Assembly: GCA_024304885.1 (NCBI GenBank) | Contig: JALJOM010000003.1 | Span: 2,204,110-2,268,109 of the forward strand | Length of the DNA stretch: 64,000 nt | DNA from: Beijerinckiaceae bacterium | GTDB lineage: Bacteria > Pseudomonadota > Alphaproteobacteria > Rhizobiales > Beijerinckiaceae | Reading direction: 5' to 3' | Part shown: positions 3,861 to 49,627 of the stretch, piece by piece | How positions within the stretch are numbered: the first letter of the stretch is position 1 | Layout of the letters: each line of letters starts with the position of its first letter | Program-made: the position numbers and the translations under genes | Notes under the pieces: generated by a model | What the model was told of the DNA's origin: nothing | Database searches by the model: none | What the model saw: the letters and a program-made list of their open reading frames with translations, nothing else

Positions 3861-3978
3861 TCCACCAAATTACGATGCGTATCTGTTCATAAGTGTTCGT
3901 TTCTCCCCTTGTGAAATCAGCATATTGCTGGACAAGCCGTTTATAACTGTTCATATCTGTTTGCCCGAAGCCGCGTCC

Positions 3979-4002
3979 GATTTGTGGACTGATTTGTGGA
4001 CT
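3979..4002 (+). promoter_or_regulatory. tandem candidate integrase arm-type sites, left end
   Basis: Two back-to-back copies of GATTTGTGGACT (3979-3990 and 3991-4002), between the left att core and the integrase start. The 11-mer GATTTGTGGAC recurs in the same orientation just inside the right end at 16487-16497. Sites shared by both ends of a tyrosine-recombinase element and lying outside the core are typical of arm binding; that role is inferred. Confidence 0.5.
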
Positions 4003-4033
4003 GCGCGGGTTCGGTGGAGAAAAACGGCGGCTT

Positions 4034-5227
4034 ATGAAAGTCAAAGGGTTGACCGCAAGAGCTGTCGAGACGGCGAAACCTGGCAAATATTGCGACGGGC
4101 GGGGGCTCTGGCTCGTGGTCTCCGAGACCCGAGCAAGGAAGTGGGTCTATCGGTTCTCACTGGCCGGCAAGCCTCACGAGATGGGGCTCGGCGCCTATCC
4201 CGACACGAGCCTCGCTGATGCCCGCGAGAAAGCGACGGATGCGCGACGAGCCGTCAAGGACGGTCGAAACCCGATCGAGGCCCGGCAAGCCGAGAAGGTC
4301 GTCTCGGCAGCGCGCAAGACCTTCGGCGAGGTCGCGCTGGCCTATGTCGCGGCGCACGAATCGAGCTGGCGCAACGAGAAGCATCGATGGCAGTGGCGCC
4401 ACTCGCTCGAAACCTATTGCAAGGCGATATGGGGCTTGCCGATCGACGAGGTGACGACCGAGCACGTGCTCGCCGTCCTGCAACCGATATGGCTCACGGT
4501 GCCGGAGACCGCTTCCCGCCTTCGCGGCCGGCTTGAAAGCATCCTAGACGCGGGGAAGGCGCAAGAGCTTCGCTCCGGCGAGAACCCGGCACGCTGGCGT
4601 GCCCATCTCGACCACCTTCTCGCCAGGCGGCAGAAGCTCACACGCGGGCATCAAAAGGCCCTACCCTATTCCGAGGCCCCGAGCTTCGTTGCCGAGCTGC
4701 GCAAGCGCCAAGGCATGGCCGCGCGAGCCCTCGAATTCGTCATCCTGACTGCCGCGCGAAGCGGCGAGGCGCGACTCGCAACATGGGCAGAGATTGACCT
4801 CGGGGCAGCGGTCTGGACCGTGCCGGCGGCGCGCATGAAGGCCAGCCGCGAGCATCGTGTCCCGCTCGTCGATCGGGCAATCGAGATCCTACGGGAGGTC
4901 GAGCCGCTCGCATCCGGGCCGGACTCGCTCGTCTTTCCAGGGACGCGAGGCAAGGCGTTGTCCGACATGACGCTCGCGGCAGTGCTTCGCCGCATGAAAG
5001 TCGAGGCGGTTCCGCATGGGTTCCGATCGAGCTTCCGGGACTGGGCCGGCGACGAGACGAGCTTCCCGCGGGAGGTCGCGGAAGCCGCGCTGGCGCATAT
5101 TGCCGGCGACGAGACCGAACGGGCCTATCGCAGATCCGACGCCTTGGAGAAGCGCCGCGAGCTCATGGCGGCGTGGACTGACTTCCTAGACCGTCGAGAG
5201 GCGAAGGTTGTGAAGCTGCGGCGGTGA
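4034..5227 (+). CDS. int: tyrosine site-specific integrase, P4-like
   Basis: A 397-residue integrase of the DUF4102/P4 type that recombines the tRNA-Ala att site. The N-terminal arm-binding domain is plain (KGLTARAVETAKPGKYCDGRGL), followed by a core-binding region and the catalytic domain with Arg242 (TAARSGEAR), His328-Arg331 (HGFR), His355 (LAHIAG) and Tyr365 (AYRRSD). All catalytic positions are present, so it should be active. It sits 170 bp inside the left att copy, at the end away from the intact tRNA, which is less common than the tRNA-proximal layout. Repeated TGTTCATA-like words around 3888-3950 and GATTTGTGGACT copies upstream may bind the integrase or a regulator. Confidence 0.95.
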   Translation: MKVKGLTARAVETAKPGKYCDGRGLWLVVSETRARKWVYRFSLAGKPHEMGLGAYPDTSLADAREKATDARRAVKDGRNPIEARQAEKVVSAARKTFGEVALAYVAAHESSWRNEKHRWQWRHSLETYCKAIWGLPIDEVTTEHVLAVLQPIWLTVPETASRLRGRLESILDAGKAQELRSGENPARWRAHLDHLLARRQKLTRGHQKALPYSEAPSFVAELRKRQGMAARALEFVILTAARSGEARLATWAEIDLGAAVWTVPAARMKASREHRVPLVDRAIEILREVEPLASGPDSLVFPGTRGKALSDMTLAAVLRRMKVEAVPHGFRSSFRDWAGDETSFPREVAEAALAHIAGDETERAYRRSDALEKRRELMAAWTDFLDRREAKVVKLRR

Positions 5228-26663: not shown

Positions 26664-26766
26664 CTAGAGCAACTTCCAGTGAAGGGGATAGTGTTTCGCG
26701 TCGCAAAATAAGACAAAACAAGGATATAGAGTCGGTTTCGTCCGATTCGGCCGGAGCGGAAACCGC
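26664..26766 (+). repeat. mosaic palindromic repeat, family 1, copy A
   Basis: Starts CTAGAGC, contains AAAATAAGACAAAACAA, and ends in the hairpin GGTTTCGTCCGATTC...GCGGAAACCG. More diverged than the copies at 31710, 44411, 44512 and 46505. Lies in the gap upstream of the 6S RNA. Confidence 0.7.
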
Positions 26767-26899
26767 GCCAGGCTCGGATCCGAGCCGGAAATCGGCTGAC
26801 ACGTACTCGTGACCGACCGATCCCGCCTGCTGCCACGCCCTTTTGAAGGCGGCTCCGGCGGCTCGGCACGAAACGAGCTGGCACTCGAGGGCCATTGCC

Positions 26900-31709: not shown

Positions 31710-31816
31710 GAGAGCGGTTTCCGATCCAGCGGAATCGGAAACTGACTCTAGGTTGTTGTTTTTTCGCATTTTCGCAACGCGAACCGATACCCGCTTCGCT
31801 GGAAGATGGTCTAGAG
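31710..31816 (-). repeat. mosaic palindromic repeat, family 1, copy E
   Basis: Read on the minus strand it matches copy B at 44411-44517 closely: CTAGA, TTCCAGCGAA, GGTTCGCGTTGCGAAAATGCG, AAAACAA, TAGAG, then the hairpin GGTTTCCGATT-type arms. Opposite orientation to the other copies. Confidence 0.8.
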
Positions 31817-42645: not shown

Positions 42646-42958
42646 AGCGCGCAGTCAAGTGCTGCGGCCTTTTTCGGCCGAGGCTGCACCGGGCGCGGAA
42701 CCCGTTGCGGCCACGGGCACAGCGCTCCGCACGGACAGGTTCGGCCCAGCTTCGACTGGTAAGACTGCCCAGGTTCATTGAGTGAATTTTTTTTCTTTAT
42801 GATATATATCAATGATCTCATTAACATGATTCCGTAACGACGTGGCTGTCCGTCGAGCGGTCCGTCCGGTTGTGGTGGCGCGGGCGTCGACGAGATGGGA
42901 TCGCTCGGGCCCGGATGCGGCTCGGGCGCAATGCACGGTCCCGCACGGCGAGGTATCT
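42646..42958. other. intergenic region between arsR and the HlyD-like gene
   Basis: About 310 bases holding the ars promoter on the left and an AT-rich stretch (42780-42840, T8 run and GATATATATCA) that probably carries the promoter of the HlyD-like gene. No gene is supported here. Confidence 0.6.
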
Positions 42959-44305
42959 ATGTTCTTCAAGAGACTCCCACCTCTGCCCGTGCCCGGCGTG
43001 CATGGCGATTCACCGAAGGTGATCGGCGGCGGCGGCGAGCGCGCCGCCTGGGACAAGGCGGCCACACGACCGCGCGGCAATCTCCTGCGCCGTGCATTCA
43101 AGGTCGGTGCGGCAGTGACGGTCCTCGGCGTCGGCATCGGCGCGCTCTACTCCCGCCACGGATATGTCGCGAGCAACAACGCCGTGGTCTCCGCGGGCCT
43201 CGTGTCGGTCCGGGCCCCCATCGACGGGATCGTCTCGGGGCGCATCGGCGGGGTCGGGACCAAGGTCACGCGCGGCGAGGCCATCGCGGTCATTACCGAT
43301 CCCTGGTTCGACGACCAGCGCCTCACGGACTTGCGCGCGACGCTCCAAAGGCTCGAGCTGCAGAACAAGAACGCGGTCGAGGGCAAGGCGGACCTTCTCG
43401 CCTTGAAGGCCACGCTCGAGGAGCGTGTCGCGACCCATACGAAAAGCAACGCAGAACGCCTTCGTGGCCTCGTCGCCGAGGCGGAAAAGGCCCTCGCGGC
43501 GCTCGTCGCGCGGCAGAACCAGGCGCAGATCGATGTCGATCGTCAGGTCCCGCTTCAAGCCTCGGGCGTCGTCAGCCGCGCGGAGGCACAGCGTCGGCTC
43601 TCGATCCTCGAGGCGGCCCGCAACGACACCGCCGCCCAGCAGGGACGGCTGGCTTCACTGCGTGCCGAGGCCGAGGCCGCGACGGCCGGTATCCTGTCGA
43701 GCCACGGTGGGATCGATGTCTCTTATTCGGCTCAGCGCATCGACCAGATCGCGATCGAGATCGCGAACCTGACCCGCCTGATCGCGGACCTCCATGCCGA
43801 GGTCGACGCCACGGCGGCGCGGCTCGCCGACGAGGAGCTGCGCGCCGCACGCATGCGGGAAGCGCGATTGGTCGCGCCGGTGAGCGGGATGGTGTGGCGA
43901 CAAGGCGCCAGCGACGGCGAGCGGATCGCCAAGGGCGATACCGCGGTCGAGCTCGTCGATTGCGCCCAACCTGTCCTTCTCGTCGCGGTGCCCCAGGATC
44001 GGTTCGCCGACATCGAGATCGGGGCGACGGCGCGCTTTCGCTTGTCGGGCGAGCTCGTCGAGCGGACGGGCAAGGTAGAGTCGATCATGGGCCAGCCCGA
44101 CGATCGCCGCGACGTGCACTATGCGGCGCGCCCCGTCTCCGAGCCGATCGCGACGATCGTGGCGCAAGTCTCGCTGCCCCCGGAAGGCAAGCAAGCGGTC
44201 GAGGGCTCCGGCAGCGATGCCTGTCTCGTCGGCCGCACCGCTCGCGTGCTGCTGCCCACGTCCGGCGGTGGCCTGGTCGATTGGATTCTGCGGCGTCTGC
44301 TCTAG
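42959..44305 (+). CDS. HlyD-like membrane fusion protein
   Basis: A 448-residue inner-membrane anchored protein: cytoplasmic N-terminus (45 residues), one membrane helix (VGAAVTVLGVGIGALYS), a split biotinyl-lipoyl domain (VSVRAPIDGIVSGRIGGVG and RLVAPVSGMVWRQGASDGER), a long coiled-coil hairpin (residues about 120-310) and a C-terminal beta domain. ATG 42959 follows GAGG. It precedes the GT2 synthase by 460 bases, as in known beta-glucan and alginate-type export pairs. The pairing suggests that it helps move polymer across the periplasm. Confidence 0.85.
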   Translation: MFFKRLPPLPVPGVHGDSPKVIGGGGERAAWDKAATRPRGNLLRRAFKVGAAVTVLGVGIGALYSRHGYVASNNAVVSAGLVSVRAPIDGIVSGRIGGVGTKVTRGEAIAVITDPWFDDQRLTDLRATLQRLELQNKNAVEGKADLLALKATLEERVATHTKSNAERLRGLVAEAEKALAALVARQNQAQIDVDRQVPLQASGVVSRAEAQRRLSILEAARNDTAAQQGRLASLRAEAEAATAGILSSHGGIDVSYSAQRIDQIAIEIANLTRLIADLHAEVDATAARLADEELRAARMREARLVAPVSGMVWRQGASDGERIAKGDTAVELVDCAQPVLLVAVPQDRFADIEIGATARFRLSGELVERTGKVESIMGQPDDRRDVHYAARPVSEPIATIVAQVSLPPEGKQAVEGSGSDACLVGRTARVLLPTSGGGLVDWILRRLL

Positions 44306-44410: not shown

Positions 44411-44517
44411 CTAGAGCACTTTCCAGCGAAACGGACACCGGTTCGCGTCGCGAAATTGCGACAAAACAAGAATGTAGAGCCGGTTTCCGATTCAACCGGA
44501 TCGGAAACCGCTCTAGA
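44411..44517 (+). repeat. mosaic palindromic repeat, family 1, copy B
   Basis: The clearest copy: CTAGAGCACTTTCCAGCGAA, CCGGTTCGCGTCGCGAAATT, GCGACAAAACAA, TAGAGC, then the hairpin GGTTTCCGATT...GGATCGGAAACC and CTCTAGA. Flanked by TAGAG/CTCTA at both ends. Confidence 0.85.
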
Positions 44518-44642
44518 ACACTTTCCAGAAAGGTGGATGCCGGTTCGCATCTCGCCGGCGATGTTTCGCAACAGCGACATCGCACTGCGTAATTGCGACA
44601 AGACATCAACGTAGAGCGGGTGTCCGATGCACCGGGATCGGA
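44512..44642 (+). repeat. mosaic palindromic repeat, family 1, copy C
   Basis: Begins in the last TCTAGA of copy B. It has the longer inner form (CGGTTCGCATCTCGCCG, then ATGTTTCGCAACAGCGACAT) also found in copy D at 46505. The end hairpin is diverged (GTGTCCGATGCACCGGGATCGG). Confidence 0.75.
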
Positions 44643-44769
44643 AGCACGCTCCAGCCCGCCGAGGCACCGCACGGCGTCACGGTCCGGTCGAGCGAACCTG
44701 CGGCATGCGGGCGATCGGCGGATGCCGCTCGCCCGCGACCGACCAACGCCCTTCCTCGAAGCTGAAGCC

Positions 44770-46860
44770 ATGCTCGATCTCGATTCTCTCGCGCCGCTTC
44801 TCGTCACGATCGGTCTATTCCTCTTGCTGGCCGCGCTCGGCGGCGGCGCGCAATCAGGGCCGGGACGAGTCGTTGCAGCAGCGCTCTGCATCGTCCTCGC
44901 CTTCCGCTACGTCTGGTGGCACGCGACGGACGGCATGCCCAAGGGGCAGGGCGTGGCGGAGCAAGCTTGGGCTTGGACGTTCTTTTTCTTCGAAGCCATG
45001 GCCATCCTCAGTGCCTCGACCGTCTACGTCTTCATGGCACGCACCAAGGATCGGTCCGCCGAGGCCGACCGGCACATGGCCTCGCCGCTCCGAGCCGCGC
45101 CGGTCGATGTCTTCATCGCGACCTACAACGAGTCGGCCGACATCCTCGAGCGGACGATCATCGGCGCCATGGGAATCGATCATCCCGACCTACGTGTCTT
45201 CGTCCTCGACGACGGCGCACGGCCCTGGGTCCGCGATCTCGCGAGCGAGCTCGGGGCGCACCATGTCCAGCGCGCCGAGCGCCTCCATGCCAAGGCAGGC
45301 AACGTGAACAATGGCCTGAGGCATGCCCTCGCGACGGGACGGCGGCCGGAATTCATCCTCCTGCTCGACGCCGACTTCATCCCGAGCCGGCAGATCCTGA
45401 GGCGGACGCTCGGCCTCTTCGACGACACCGAGGTCGGCATCGTCCAGACGCCGCAACATTTCTTCAACCCGGACCCGGTCCAGTCGAACCTGCTCTGCAC
45501 CAAGGTCTGGCCCGACGAGCAGCGATTCTTCTTCGATGTCTTGATGCCCTGCAAGGATGCCTGGGGCGTCGCGTTCTGCTGCGGCACGTCGGCGGTCTTT
45601 CGCGTCGCCGCGCTCGAAGCGACCGGCGGCCTGGCGACCGAAACGGTGACCGAGGACATGCTGACCTCGTTCAAGATGGAGGAATACGGCTATCGCACGA
45701 TCTATCTCAACGAGCCCTTGAGCATCGGGCTCGCGCCGGAGGGGCTCGGCGAATATATCTCGCAGCGCTGCCGCTGGGCTCTCGGAGCCATCCAGCAGAT
45801 CTATACGCGCTGGTCCGTCCTCGGCCCCGCGCGCCTGCGCTCGATCAGCCGGTTCTCTTCCCTCGACGGCACGCTCTACTGGCTGTTCAGCTTCCCCTTC
45901 AAGCTGATCATGATCACCGCACCCATGATCTATTGGTGGACCGGTGCGGCCGTCGTCGTCACGGAGGACCTCCTGACCTGGCTCGGACCCTATGCGGCGG
46001 CGACCGTGATGTTCATGGGCCTCTATACCCGAAACCGGGTGCTGCCGATCATGACCGACGTCACGCAATTGCTCTCGGCCATGGCGATCACGCAGACGAC
46101 GATCACCGGCCTGGTCAAGCCCTGGGGACATCCGTTCAAGGTCACGGCGAAGGGGACCTCGAGCGAATCCATCACGATCCATTGGGGCTATCTCCTGCCC
46201 TTCGCCGTCGTGATTCTCGGAACCCTGACGGGCATCCTCGTCAACCTGTCGAGCTACGCCGACATCAACGGGGCGAACGGCTATGTCGTCAACCTGTTCT
46301 GGAGCATCTACAACATCGTCTTCCTGACCTTGGTGGTGGCGGTCTGCGTCGAGCTGCCACGACGGCGCCGCGACGAGCGTTTCGAGCTCGACGAGGTGGC
46401 CGTGATTCGTTGGAGCAACGGACAGGAGTCTCGCTGCATCGTGCGCGACATCTCGCTCGGAGGTGCCTGGCTCGAGGCGCTCGCCCCGGATCGCCGAGAG
46501 CGATATGCAGCGACGCGGAAACCCGTTCGCATTTCGCCGACGACGTTGCGCTACAGCGACATCGATGCGAAATCGCGACAAGGCCAGAAGGTAGAGCCGG
46601 TTTCCGATTCAGCCGGATCGGAAACCGGTCTCGCGCGGCGGGAAGGTGGCCTCCTGCTGCTCGATGCCGGTGCGATCGTGGTGCCGTTCGAGCCGTTGCG
46701 GCACATCGGACCCGCCGAGTTCGCCGTGCGCTTCGAGCCCACGACCGAGGTGCGCCGCGCCCTGATCCGCAAGCTGTTCTCGGGCGCCCACCGCAACAAG
46801 ATCGAGGAGGTCAGCGTCCCCCGCGTCATCCTCGCGATGGGCCGGAAGCTCTTGACGTGA
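44770..46860 (+). CDS. processive GT2 polysaccharide synthase with C-terminal PilZ domain
   Basis: A 696-residue inner-membrane synthase of the cellulose/beta-glucan synthase kind. GT2 motifs in order: DD (147-148), DAD (200-202), TED (294-296) and Q332RCRW. About seven membrane helices surround them. The PilZ domain (531-660) has R533RDER537 and D560ISLGG, both c-di-GMP-binding motifs. Residues about 576-622 are encoded by a palindromic repeat inside the PilZ domain. ATG 44770 is the first with a matching membrane N-terminus. Together with the upstream HlyD-like gene it resembles the Sinorhizobium BgsA/BgsB pair, although BgsA lacks PilZ. Confidence 0.88.
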   Translation: MLDLDSLAPLLVTIGLFLLLAALGGGAQSGPGRVVAAALCIVLAFRYVWWHATDGMPKGQGVAEQAWAWTFFFFEAMAILSASTVYVFMARTKDRSAEADRHMASPLRAAPVDVFIATYNESADILERTIIGAMGIDHPDLRVFVLDDGARPWVRDLASELGAHHVQRAERLHAKAGNVNNGLRHALATGRRPEFILLLDADFIPSRQILRRTLGLFDDTEVGIVQTPQHFFNPDPVQSNLLCTKVWPDEQRFFFDVLMPCKDAWGVAFCCGTSAVFRVAALEATGGLATETVTEDMLTSFKMEEYGYRTIYLNEPLSIGLAPEGLGEYISQRCRWALGAIQQIYTRWSVLGPARLRSISRFSSLDGTLYWLFSFPFKLIMITAPMIYWWTGAAVVVTEDLLTWLGPYAAATVMFMGLYTRNRVLPIMTDVTQLLSAMAITQTTITGLVKPWGHPFKVTAKGTSSESITIHWGYLLPFAVVILGTLTGILVNLSSYADINGANGYVVNLFWSIYNIVFLTLVVAVCVELPRRRRDERFELDEVAVIRWSNGQESRCIVRDISLGGAWLEALAPDRRERYAATRKPVRISPTTLRYSDIDAKSRQGQKVEPVSDSAGSETGLARREGGLLLLDAGAIVVPFEPLRHIGPAEFAVRFEPTTEVRRALIRKLFSGAHRNKIEEVSVPRVILAMGRKLLT
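46505..46629 (+). repeat. mosaic palindromic repeat, family 1, copy D, inside a coding region
   Basis: Matches copies B and C (CCGTTCGCATTTCGCCG, GCGCTACAGCGACATCGAT, GCGACAAGGCC, TAGAGCCGGTTTCCGATTC, then GGATCGGAAACCGG). It is read through in frame as about 42-46 residues, including KVEPVSDSAGSETG, between two PilZ beta strands. Confidence 0.8.
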
Positions 46861-46930: not shown

Positions 46931-49537
46931 TCAGGCCGCGTGAGCGGACGAGGCGGTCTCGCCGTCTTGGCGGAAGCCGAGACGCTTTTTCTCGACCATG
47001 GCATGCACCTCGCTCGCCGGCAGCGGCGGGCTGAAGTAATAGCCCTGGATTTCGGTGCAGCCTTCCTTCCTCAGCCATTCGAGCTGCTCACGAGTCTCGA
47101 CACCCTCCGCGGTGATCGCCATGCCGAGGCTCGTTCCGAGCGCTGCGACCGCGCGCACGATCGCCGTGGATTGCGCGCCCGTGGCGATCTCGTCGACGAA
47201 CGACTTGTCGATCTTGATCTTGGTGAAGGGGAAGGTGCGCAGGTAGGTCAGGCAGGAATAGCCGGTGCCGAAGTCGTCCATGGAGACCCCGACCCCGAGG
47301 TCGCGCAGCTTGTGCAACGTGGCGAGAACGGTGTCGCTTTCCGCAAGGAGCACGGTCTCGGTGATCTCGAGGTCGAGGCGGTGCGGCGGCAGGCCCGAAT
47401 CGACGAGGGCCTGCAGCACGGTCTTGTGCAGGTTTCCGAACTTGAACTGCACGGCCGACAGGTTGACCGTGACCTTGAGCGGATCCGGCCAGCTCCTCGC
47501 CTCGAAGCACGCGTGGCGCAAGGCCCATTCGCCGAGCGGCACGATCAAGCCGGTCTTTTCCGCCAAGGGAATGAACTCGCTGGGTCCGACGAGACCGCGG
47601 TTCGGATGGCGCCAGCGCAGCAAGGCCTCGAACCCGTTGATCGCGCCCGAGTCGATCTCGACGAGCGGCTGGAAAAAGAGCTCGAACTCGCCTTTGGCCA
47701 GCGCCTCCTGCAAGGTTCCCTCGATCACGCTGCGGGCCAGAATGCGCGTGTGCAGCTCGGGCGAGAAGTGGGCGAACGTCCGGCGACCCTGCTCCTTGGC
47801 TCGATAGAGCGCGATGTCGGCGTTTCGCAACAAGACGGGGGCGGAATTGCCGTCGTTCGGCGCGATCGCGATCCCGACGCTCACACCGATCGTCACATGA
47901 TAGCGCTCGATCTCGAAGGGCGCATTCAGAGATTCGACGATCCGGCACGCGAGGCGACCGGTGTCCGCAGGGGTCTCGAGGTCCGCCTGGACGATCGCGA
48001 ACTCGTCACCGCCGAGGCGCGCCACGAAATCCGTCTGCCGCAACACGTCTTGCAGTCTCTGGCCGACCGCGCGCAAGAGTTGATCGCCGATCGGGTGGCC
48101 CAACGTGTCGTTGACGTTCTTGAAATCGTCGAGATCGAGATAAAGCACCGCGAGGGGGCGCCCGCTCGCGAGATTGGCCTGGAGCGTGCGGGCCAGCTCC
48201 TCTGTGAAGAGCGCGCGGTTCGGCAAGCCGGTCAAGGCGTCGTGATGCGCCATATGCTCGATTCGAGCCTCGGCTCGTCTTTGCTCGGTGATGTCGACGA
48301 TCGTGACGAGGTTGGCGACGACGCCCTCGAAGACGATGTCGCGGCCGTAGATGTGAACGTCGATCTTCGACCCGTCCGCCTTGATATGCCGCTCGATCTG
48401 CTCGAAGCTCGTCGGCCGCGTGCCGTCCGCGGCTCGCGAGCACAGGTCTCGGCAGGCTTCGCACGACACGATGTCGCACACGCGCAGGCCGATGAAGGCG
48501 GATCGATCATACCCGTAAAGCGCGGTGGCCGCGTCGTTCACGGCCAGTATGGTCTGACCGCTCGGATCGCAAAGCCACATCGGCACGGGATTGTTCTTGA
48601 ACAGCATCCGGAACGAGGCCTCGCGGCGCTTCACGTCGCCGATATTGCTCAAGGTCAGGACGACAAACTCGCCGAGCGGCGCGGCACCCACGTTCAGGTG
48701 GACCACATCGCCGTCCGCGGTCTCTTGGTCGAGCTCGAAGCGGGCGTTCTCGCCGCTCGCAACGACGTCCAGAAGCCGCGAGATCACGCTCGGCTCACCG
48801 AGGCTGAACGCGACCTCGCCGAGCCTCTGCCCGGTCAGCTCGTCCGCGGGCTGCTGCAACAAGGCCGCAGCTCCGTCGTTGAGAGCGAGAATTTGAAAGT
48901 CACGTGGCACGCCGTCCTTCCCGCGAGCCAGCACCAGCGCAACCTGCCCCTCGGGCGTCGCCTTGAACAAGCATTCGAGAAGATTGCAGGCGCGGTCTCG
49001 CTCGCGGACGTAGACGAGGCAGAGTGGTGGCCCCCACCGGTTGGCGAGAGGCAGAGCGACGATGTCGTCGCTGCAGACGACGAAGTTCACGAGTGCGTGC
49101 GCGATCTTCTGCACCGGTCGACCCTCGGCTAACGCCTCGGCGACCGCTTCGTGCAGGACGCGAGCGCGACCGGTCGAACGCGGGGTGATCTCGATCGTCG
49201 TATCCCGAGCCCGGATCCAGCCCTCGAACCGGCGCCCGACGCGAAAGACGACGAGGCCCTCGCCGGTGCCCGGGCGAACGAGGGCGATGTCGTCGGCGAG
49301 GTCCCCGAAGCTTCCGAGCGCCAGCTCCTCGAACGGCGGCAGCGGATGCCGCGGATCCGCCAGCGCCGTGGCCTGCCAACGCAGGAGCAGCGACACGATC
49401 TCGGCCGGCTGATCGATCGGAGCAGCCATCCGCTCGCCGGCATCCTCGAGCGCGGCGCAGGGGCTCACGTCGCGATAGGGCGCGCGCAGCTCGGCTTCGA
49501 GGGTTTTGGCGCCTTTGGCCTCGGTCTTGATTTCCAT
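46931..49537 (-). CDS. PAS-GGDEF-EAL cyclic-di-GMP protein
   Basis: An 868-residue cytoplasmic signalling protein. An N-terminal region of unknown fold (1-300) is followed by PAS (about 305-415), GGDEF (about 430-590) and EAL (about 605-850). The GGDEF active site is RLGGDEF (507-513), with an inhibitory RxxD site at R500-D503. The EAL signature FEALLRWRHP and later DDFGTGYSCL are intact, so both synthesis and breakdown are possible. The PAS domain has a tight cysteine set (C354, C359, C362, C366). ATG 49537 is preferred over 49579. It neighbours the PilZ synthase and may control it. Confidence 0.92.
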   Translation of the reverse strand: MEIKTEAKGAKTLEAELRAPYRDVSPCAALEDAGERMAAPIDQPAEIVSLLLRWQATALADPRHPLPPFEELALGSFGDLADDIALVRPGTGEGLVVFRVGRRFEGWIRARDTTIEITPRSTGRARVLHEAVAEALAEGRPVQKIAHALVNFVVCSDDIVALPLANRWGPPLCLVYVRERDRACNLLECLFKATPEGQVALVLARGKDGVPRDFQILALNDGAAALLQQPADELTGQRLGEVAFSLGEPSVISRLLDVVASGENARFELDQETADGDVVHLNVGAAPLGEFVVLTLSNIGDVKRREASFRMLFKNNPVPMWLCDPSGQTILAVNDAATALYGYDRSAFIGLRVCDIVSCEACRDLCSRAADGTRPTSFEQIERHIKADGSKIDVHIYGRDIVFEGVVANLVTIVDITEQRRAEARIEHMAHHDALTGLPNRALFTEELARTLQANLASGRPLAVLYLDLDDFKNVNDTLGHPIGDQLLRAVGQRLQDVLRQTDFVARLGGDEFAIVQADLETPADTGRLACRIVESLNAPFEIERYHVTIGVSVGIAIAPNDGNSAPVLLRNADIALYRAKEQGRRTFAHFSPELHTRILARSVIEGTLQEALAKGEFELFFQPLVEIDSGAINGFEALLRWRHPNRGLVGPSEFIPLAEKTGLIVPLGEWALRHACFEARSWPDPLKVTVNLSAVQFKFGNLHKTVLQALVDSGLPPHRLDLEITETVLLAESDTVLATLHKLRDLGVGVSMDDFGTGYSCLTYLRTFPFTKIKIDKSFVDEIATGAQSTAIVRAVAALGTSLGMAITAEGVETREQLEWLRKEGCTEIQGYYFSPPLPASEVHAMVEKKRLGFRQDGETASSAHAA

Positions 49538-49627
49538 GCCCACTCCCTCGCCGACCCCGGAATTATGGGATGACGACAAATACCAGCGAGCTAGGATTGA
49601 ACATCATATTTTATCCGCTTGCGTTGA

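Follow-up and report, generated by a model that had tools for sequence, protein, structure and literature searches.

A sequence that resembles the intergenic palindromic repeats of its surroundings is read through in frame within the PilZ domain of a polysaccharide synthase of a Beijerinckiaceae bacterium. The gene lies on contig JALJOM010000003.1, in a window of 64,000 nucleotides, which is the whole stretch of DNA analysed here. This raises the question of how a mobile-looking repeat came to lie inside a conserved regulatory domain, and whether the synthase and its response to c-di-GMP are affected by it.

A repeat copy within the PilZ domain of a BcsA-like synthase

The gene occupies positions 44770–46860 of the forward strand and encodes a GT2 beta-glycan synthase of 696 aa with a C-terminal PilZ domain; the start at 44770 was picked by inspection, and the listed open reading frame (44593–46860) starts at 44593. 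A GT2 domain and a partial PilZ domain were found in the protein with Pfam, and catalytic motifs are present in its sequence. A search of PDB sequences matched it to BcsA with an E value of 2e-75. By sequence, the solved structures nearest to it are those of bacterial cellulose synthases, and the best of these sequence matches end at residues 566–568, just before the insert. The protein is called BcsA-like here because its score of 388.8 bits is below the cut-off of the NCBIfam cellulose synthase model CelA (TIGR03030, 699.1 bits).

The gating-loop motif, defined as FxVTxK (PMC5567048), is present as FKVTAKG. The PilZ motifs, for which the same text gives the definitions RxxxR and (D/N)xSxxG (PMC5567048), are both found on the forward strand: the RxxxR region, PRRRRDERFELDE, is located at 46357–46395 (residues 530–542, with RRDER at 533–537), and the (D/N)xSxxG region, RDISLGG, at 46444–46464 (residues 559–565, with DISLGG at 560–565). 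The c-di-GMP motifs are present in the sequence just before the insert, as the sequence-only reading of this DNA had said. The synthase, BcsA and BgsA are alike in the GT2 core, the FxVTxK gating-loop motif and the C-terminal domain; however, BgsA is described as having no PilZ motifs (PMC5567048), whereas the synthase studied here has them.

Upstream of the synthase gene is a gene for an HlyD-like membrane-fusion protein (42842–44305, forward strand; Pfam HlyD_3, 45.4 bits), the start of which is uncertain, with an in-frame ATG at 42959. On the other side, the synthase gene adjoins an open reading frame on the reverse strand (46931–49579), which was assigned by NCBIfam to PAS-GGDEF-EAL proteins of c-di-GMP turnover and is likely a local c-di-GMP regulator.

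The repeat copy in the PilZ domain is located at 46495–46633 on the forward strand and belongs to the long form of the repeat (139 bp). The sequence-only reading had placed it at 46505–46629; the repeat is indeed there, but its extent is larger. It is in frame and corresponds to codons 576–621 plus one base, and its 3' palindrome, which would form a hairpin in RNA, covers positions 46598–46628 of the same strand. The alignment with the long consensus of subfamily A is free of gaps over 139 bp, with 114 identical positions; with the consensus of subfamily B, to which the copy was assigned, it is 86% identical. The reading frame stays open through the insert, which, with a 4-bp end counted only once, lengthens the gene by a net 45 codons at a site between the third and fourth PilZ strands. 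The open frame and the gap-free match to the consensus bear out the suggestion that about 45 residues of the repeat are read in frame in the PilZ domain of this GT2 synthase.

The distance from VRDISLGG to AVRFE is 99 residues in this protein and 46–64 residues in all 101 relatives aligned, which are without the insert. These relatives comprise 21 loci from the genome search and 80 named loci from the search with the alignment query; L053, a second match in the same genome, was left out, and the locus L060 reaches a contig end. Many of the 101 relatives are only 35–45% identical to the synthase and some have no PilZ motifs, so most weight falls on the nearest among them (L032, L033, L052 and L054–L057). 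An alignment of orthologues had been proposed in the sequence-only reading, and the 45 residues are absent from every one of the relatives aligned; relatives carrying the same residues, which would make the similarity to the repeat accidental, were looked for in this set and none was found. A chance resemblance of an old extension of the domain to the repeat has a negligible probability. Although the match is imperfect (82–86% identity to the two consensus forms), this explanation was rejected on three grounds: the match is full-length and gap-free over 139 bp, a search of the own genome with the PilZ stretch returns other near-full-length copies with E values down to 8.5e-31, and the insert is missing in each of the 101 relatives.

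When the flanks of the insert were joined with 135 bp removed, the alignment score rose against each of the seven relatives tried, for example, from 202 to 243. A removal of 135 bp was the best or tied in three of the seven, and 132 or 141 bp was the best in the other four; this test is weak, because any shortening lowers the gap cost. The Pfam profile of the PilZ domain (PF07238) scores 16.7 bits in the synthase at a cut-off of 22.5 bits, covers profile positions 2–38 only and breaks off at the insert. Among five insert-free relatives, two pass the cut-off, two match nearly the full profile just below it, and one has no match.

Genes similar to the synthase were found at an E value of 1e-80 in 20 of 148 other genomes of the family sample, and at 1e-20 in one of 14 other genomes of the genus (locus L052, genome G153). 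At this place the insert is absent from L052, the genome of which has no palindrome matches. The frame of the L052 synthase gene is disrupted within the catalytic part, away from the place of the insert, which may reflect either decay of this gene or an error in the draft assembly.

The repeat family and its burst in one lineage

Five copies of the repeat lie within the window, including the one in the PilZ domain. Two were called intergenic in the sequence-only reading, at 26664–26771 on the forward strand and at 31711–31814 on the reverse strand. The other two are found on the forward strand in the intergenic region between the HlyD-like and GT2 genes, where a short-form copy of 106 bp (44411–44516) stands in tandem with a long-form copy (44513–44654), the CTAG end being common to both. 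All the copies that had been named at gap sites (26664, 31710, 44411 and 44512) were confirmed as the same repeat.

The repeat has two main lengths, a short form of 106 bp and a long form of 138–139 bp, which has an extra stretch represented by two sequence subfamilies, A and B. By best fit, 143 copies are short, 46 belong to long A and 20 to long B. Both ends of the consensus are alike, CTAGAGCnnTTTCC, with 12 of the first 14 positions identical, so that they form terminal inverted repeats; the 3' palindrome of the consensus is preceded by GTAG and has CTAG at its other side. Among seven pairs of abutting copies, an intact CTAG is found at the junction in four and in none of the other three. 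With one 4-bp end counted as target, to which the net in-frame gain in the PilZ domain corresponds, the two forms add 102 or 135 bases, both multiples of three, to a CTAG-like site, and stop-free frames are common in them. Both the 106 and 139 bp forms fall within the size class of MITEs (70–300 bp, no transposase coding capacity). In addition, 20 end-like sites (CTAGAGCnnTTTCC with at most one mismatch) were seen outside the called copies in the genome stretches examined, for example, at L140, L143, L149, L161 and L227; these may represent either remnants or the termini of a parent element.

A REP element driven by a RAYT was also considered and rejected, since no Y1_Tnp gene above the cut-off of 23 bits was found in the genome, the sole match having 17.8 bits and an internal stop. 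In plasmid records, the long form gave no match at an E value of 1e-3, while a short copy matched five of 72,556 records, four of Bradyrhizobium, one of Methylobacterium and none of Sinorhizobium.

The palindrome pattern, with at most three mismatches, occurs 139 times in the forward and 143 times in the reverse orientation in this genome, where a single site can score on both strands; the backwards control gave 0. In 979,382 distinct bases of the genome, 211 repeat sites were found, 209 of them distinct. Five stretches chosen regardless of copies, 86 kb in all, contain six copies, which corresponds roughly to 270 per genome of 3.8 Mb. Among the 15 genomes of the genus, there are 282 palindrome matches in this one and 0–2 in each of the 14 others, five of which have one or two. 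The burst therefore belongs to this lineage. Of the 396 other genomes of the family, those of the genus counted, 17 have any palindrome match, with a maximum of 17 per genome. This genome is thus the only one with the burst among the 15 of the genus and the 397 of the family that were searched, itself included.

Predicted structure, selection and RNA folding of the insert

The structure of the synthase was predicted with AlphaFold2 using an alignment of 56 proteins, and the model has a mean pLDDT of 90. Residues 584–622 are the only segment of at least three residues with pLDDT below 50; low values are expected there anyway, because no other aligned row covers the insert. Six strands are predicted around the insert in the order of a PilZ domain (538–548, 553–561, 565–570, 627–631, 636–647 and 650–655). 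In the model of the insert-free relative L057 (650 aa, alignment of 39 proteins), there is a turn of 10 residues at this place and no low-confidence segment. Over its full length, the synthase model matches BcsA with a Z score of about 37.5 and an rmsd of 2.6–2.8 over 613–631 residues (the best three rows), and this structural match extends to residue 696. The PilZ barrel is thus predicted to be intact, with the insert as its sole long low-confidence stretch. In the model, the insert falls into the strand 3–4 turn and DISLGG into the strand 2–3 turn; in a meander barrel, these two turns lie at opposite ends.

Given these results, it is quite probable that a MITE-like repeat, multiplied in this lineage, inserted into the strand 3–4 turn of the PilZ domain and is tolerated there as a disordered loop. 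A non-autonomous palindromic repeat of MITE type would have multiplied in the lineage, presumably by transposition, and a long-form copy would have inserted into the codons of this turn of the BcsA-like synthase. If one 4-bp CTAG-like end is counted as the target, which may have been duplicated, the net gain would be 135 bp, or 45 codons, and therefore the frame would be kept; the frame through the insert would have been free of stops by chance. The protein would tolerate the insert as a disordered loop, with the synthase and its c-di-GMP site probably intact according to the model. A tolerated insertion, most likely as a floppy loop, is the best supported explanation.

It is unlikely, with a small but real probability, that the insert has made the PilZ domain less functional and that the synthase gene is heading for loss. 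This would agree with the Pfam PilZ match, which is partial and below the cut-off, and with the occurrence of a match at 1e-20 in only one of the 14 other genomes of the genus, where it is frame-disrupted; judging by this single, disrupted match, the synthase gene seems dispensable. However, the frame is open, the conserved segment after the insert is retained, the catalytic motifs are in the sequence, and the model is confident on both sides of the insert.

The sequence-only reading had suggested that the insert could change the response of the synthase to c-di-GMP. Through the packing of the barrel against the GT domain or the gating loop, the dependence on c-di-GMP could become weaker or the affinity could be shifted. 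The insert is within the regulatory domain, the neighbouring PAS-GGDEF-EAL gene suggests local c-di-GMP signalling, and a palindromic insert of Rickettsia is reported to have shifted the substrate affinity of guanylate kinase (PMC2229807). Nevertheless, such a change is distinctly unlikely here: the barrel is predicted to be intact, the insert and DISLGG are in different turns, 3–4 and 2–3, and the peptide bears no sign of selection, albeit at low power.

The latter follows from the changes in the insert, which look neutral at low power. The insert is separated from the subfamily B consensus by 21 changes, of which 4 are synonymous and 17 non-synonymous, at a neutral expectation of 27% synonymous; they are distributed over the codon positions as 4, 11 and 6. 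The B set used for these counts contains 14 copies chosen by a loose rule, a few of which look like subfamily A; the number of changes (21) gives the count low power, and some of them may predate the insertion. When all copies are pooled into one consensus, 4 synonymous changes stand against 20 non-synonymous ones, and when six single copies serve as references, between 3 of 30 and 9 of 26 changes are synonymous. Since the counts are near the neutral ones, there is no sign that the sequence of the peptide itself is being preserved. The effect of the insert on the protein would be nearly neutral.

As for the RNA, the insert folds far better than its shuffles (z −4.8), whereas a nearby coding stretch does not differ from them (z 0.03). 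Ribosomes could be slowed by such a hairpin in the message, or the hairpin could be cut, so that less synthase would be made. However, the intergenic copy at 44411 folds equally well or better (z −6.3); the stability is therefore a property of the repeat and says nothing about its use here, and an effect at the RNA level is very unlikely.

Other copies touching genes and similar repeats elsewhere

Every site was checked for an open frame through the copy and for a coding signal on its flanks. Among the 209 copies, the PilZ copy is the only one with a clear coding signal on both sides, in the middle of a domain, and four further copies (L152, L189, L155 and L163) touch genes at their ends. With one clear mid-domain and four gene-end cases in 209 copies, coding insertions are rare; the census starts from the conserved palindrome or from similarity, so diverged copies in genes may be missed.

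The long-form copy at 3896–4035 of L152 (own genome, C3, about 722.6 kb) makes up the C-terminal tail, the last 45 residues or so, of a TlyA-like methylase (methyltransferase), and has gaps relative to the consensus. Of 12 TlyA-like loci of the genus, 11 encode a protein that ends just before the place of the tail, at nearly the same residue; the twelfth match is too short to compare. In L189, a short copy in the reverse orientation (3929–4034) is found in the signal peptide of a family 3 solute-binding protein, after its first residues and before its hydrophobic part. This protein starts with MLRLAAL, and a similar heptad (MFKLNAL, MLKMNVL, MLKRNVL or MFKMNVV) begins seven of 11 relatives. 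Judging by these sequences, the copy probably splits the signal peptide in frame. L163 is similar, with a short copy (3967–4072) within what is probably the signal peptide of a PLD-like protein. The short copy of L155 (3710–3815), diverged (66%) and gap-free, is close to the N-terminal end of a PAS histidine kinase; there is a good ribosome-binding site upstream, and relatives are too variable there to prove an N-terminal insertion. These three copies may lie in N-terminal segments, or the start codons of L189, L155 and L163 could be inside or after the repeat.

The four copies called coding, other than the methylase tail (PilZ, L155, L163 and L189), are free of gaps, while among other copies at about the identity of L155 (66%), only two of 28 are gap-free. 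This is suggestive; it is no independent test, because the four were chosen partly for their open frames. The repeat may be frame-neutral by its build, and the burst may have repeatedly added peptides at the edges and turns of proteins, the loop of the present case having retuned a c-di-GMP-gated synthase; taken as a whole, this scenario is highly improbable.

The insertion of repeats in frame into coding DNA, for which the sequence-only reading had pointed to Rickettsia, is indeed known from that genus; however, it is not special to it. The palindromic elements of Rickettsia are 105–146 bp long, have readable frames and occur within conserved proteins as in-frame fusions (PMC2229807). By description, the PilZ copy and the TlyA-like tail can be likened to them as in-frame insertions in conserved protein genes; the difference is that here there are one clear mid-domain and four gene-end cases in 209 copies of a 3.8 Mb genome. 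In enterobacteria, in-frame fusions of the RU-1, RU-2 and RU-3 repeats (ERIC, YPAL), including one in a predicted signal peptide, are reported (PMC2759123); they are alike by description, and the host and the target proteins are different. The QMITE element of Coxiella adds a C-terminal tail to enhC in frame (PMC5896051), which by description resembles the TlyA-like tail in another host. GTAG/CGTC REPs are short palindromes that occur inside genes of several species, where, it is argued, they may be accommodated in loops or linkers (PMC3733652). Unlike them, the element described here is longer, has two ends alike and has no accompanying Y1_Tnp gene above the cut-off. Finally, RIME are described as intergenic mosaic repeats of rhizobia (PMC2573895, PMC2873474), and the present repeat may be similar to them by this description. 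Topical searches and searches with 12-letter pieces of the palindrome, the latter giving matches unrelated by title and abstract, returned no published description of the repeat, nor one of a comparable insertion into a PilZ domain, among the literature matches listed, in which subscription journals are thinly covered.

In-frame insertion of repeats is thus already known from Rickettsia, enterobacteria, Coxiella and REPs, and the present case adds another host and another target. It is a clean natural experiment, in which a lineage-specific burst, a full-length insertion and insert-free relatives are combined with a target domain that is biochemically well understood. It also shows how rare such repeats are in the genes of this genome and at which sites they are found, namely, a turn and the ends of proteins. 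If it is true that the insert alters c-di-GMP control, this would be a case of regulation made by a repeat.
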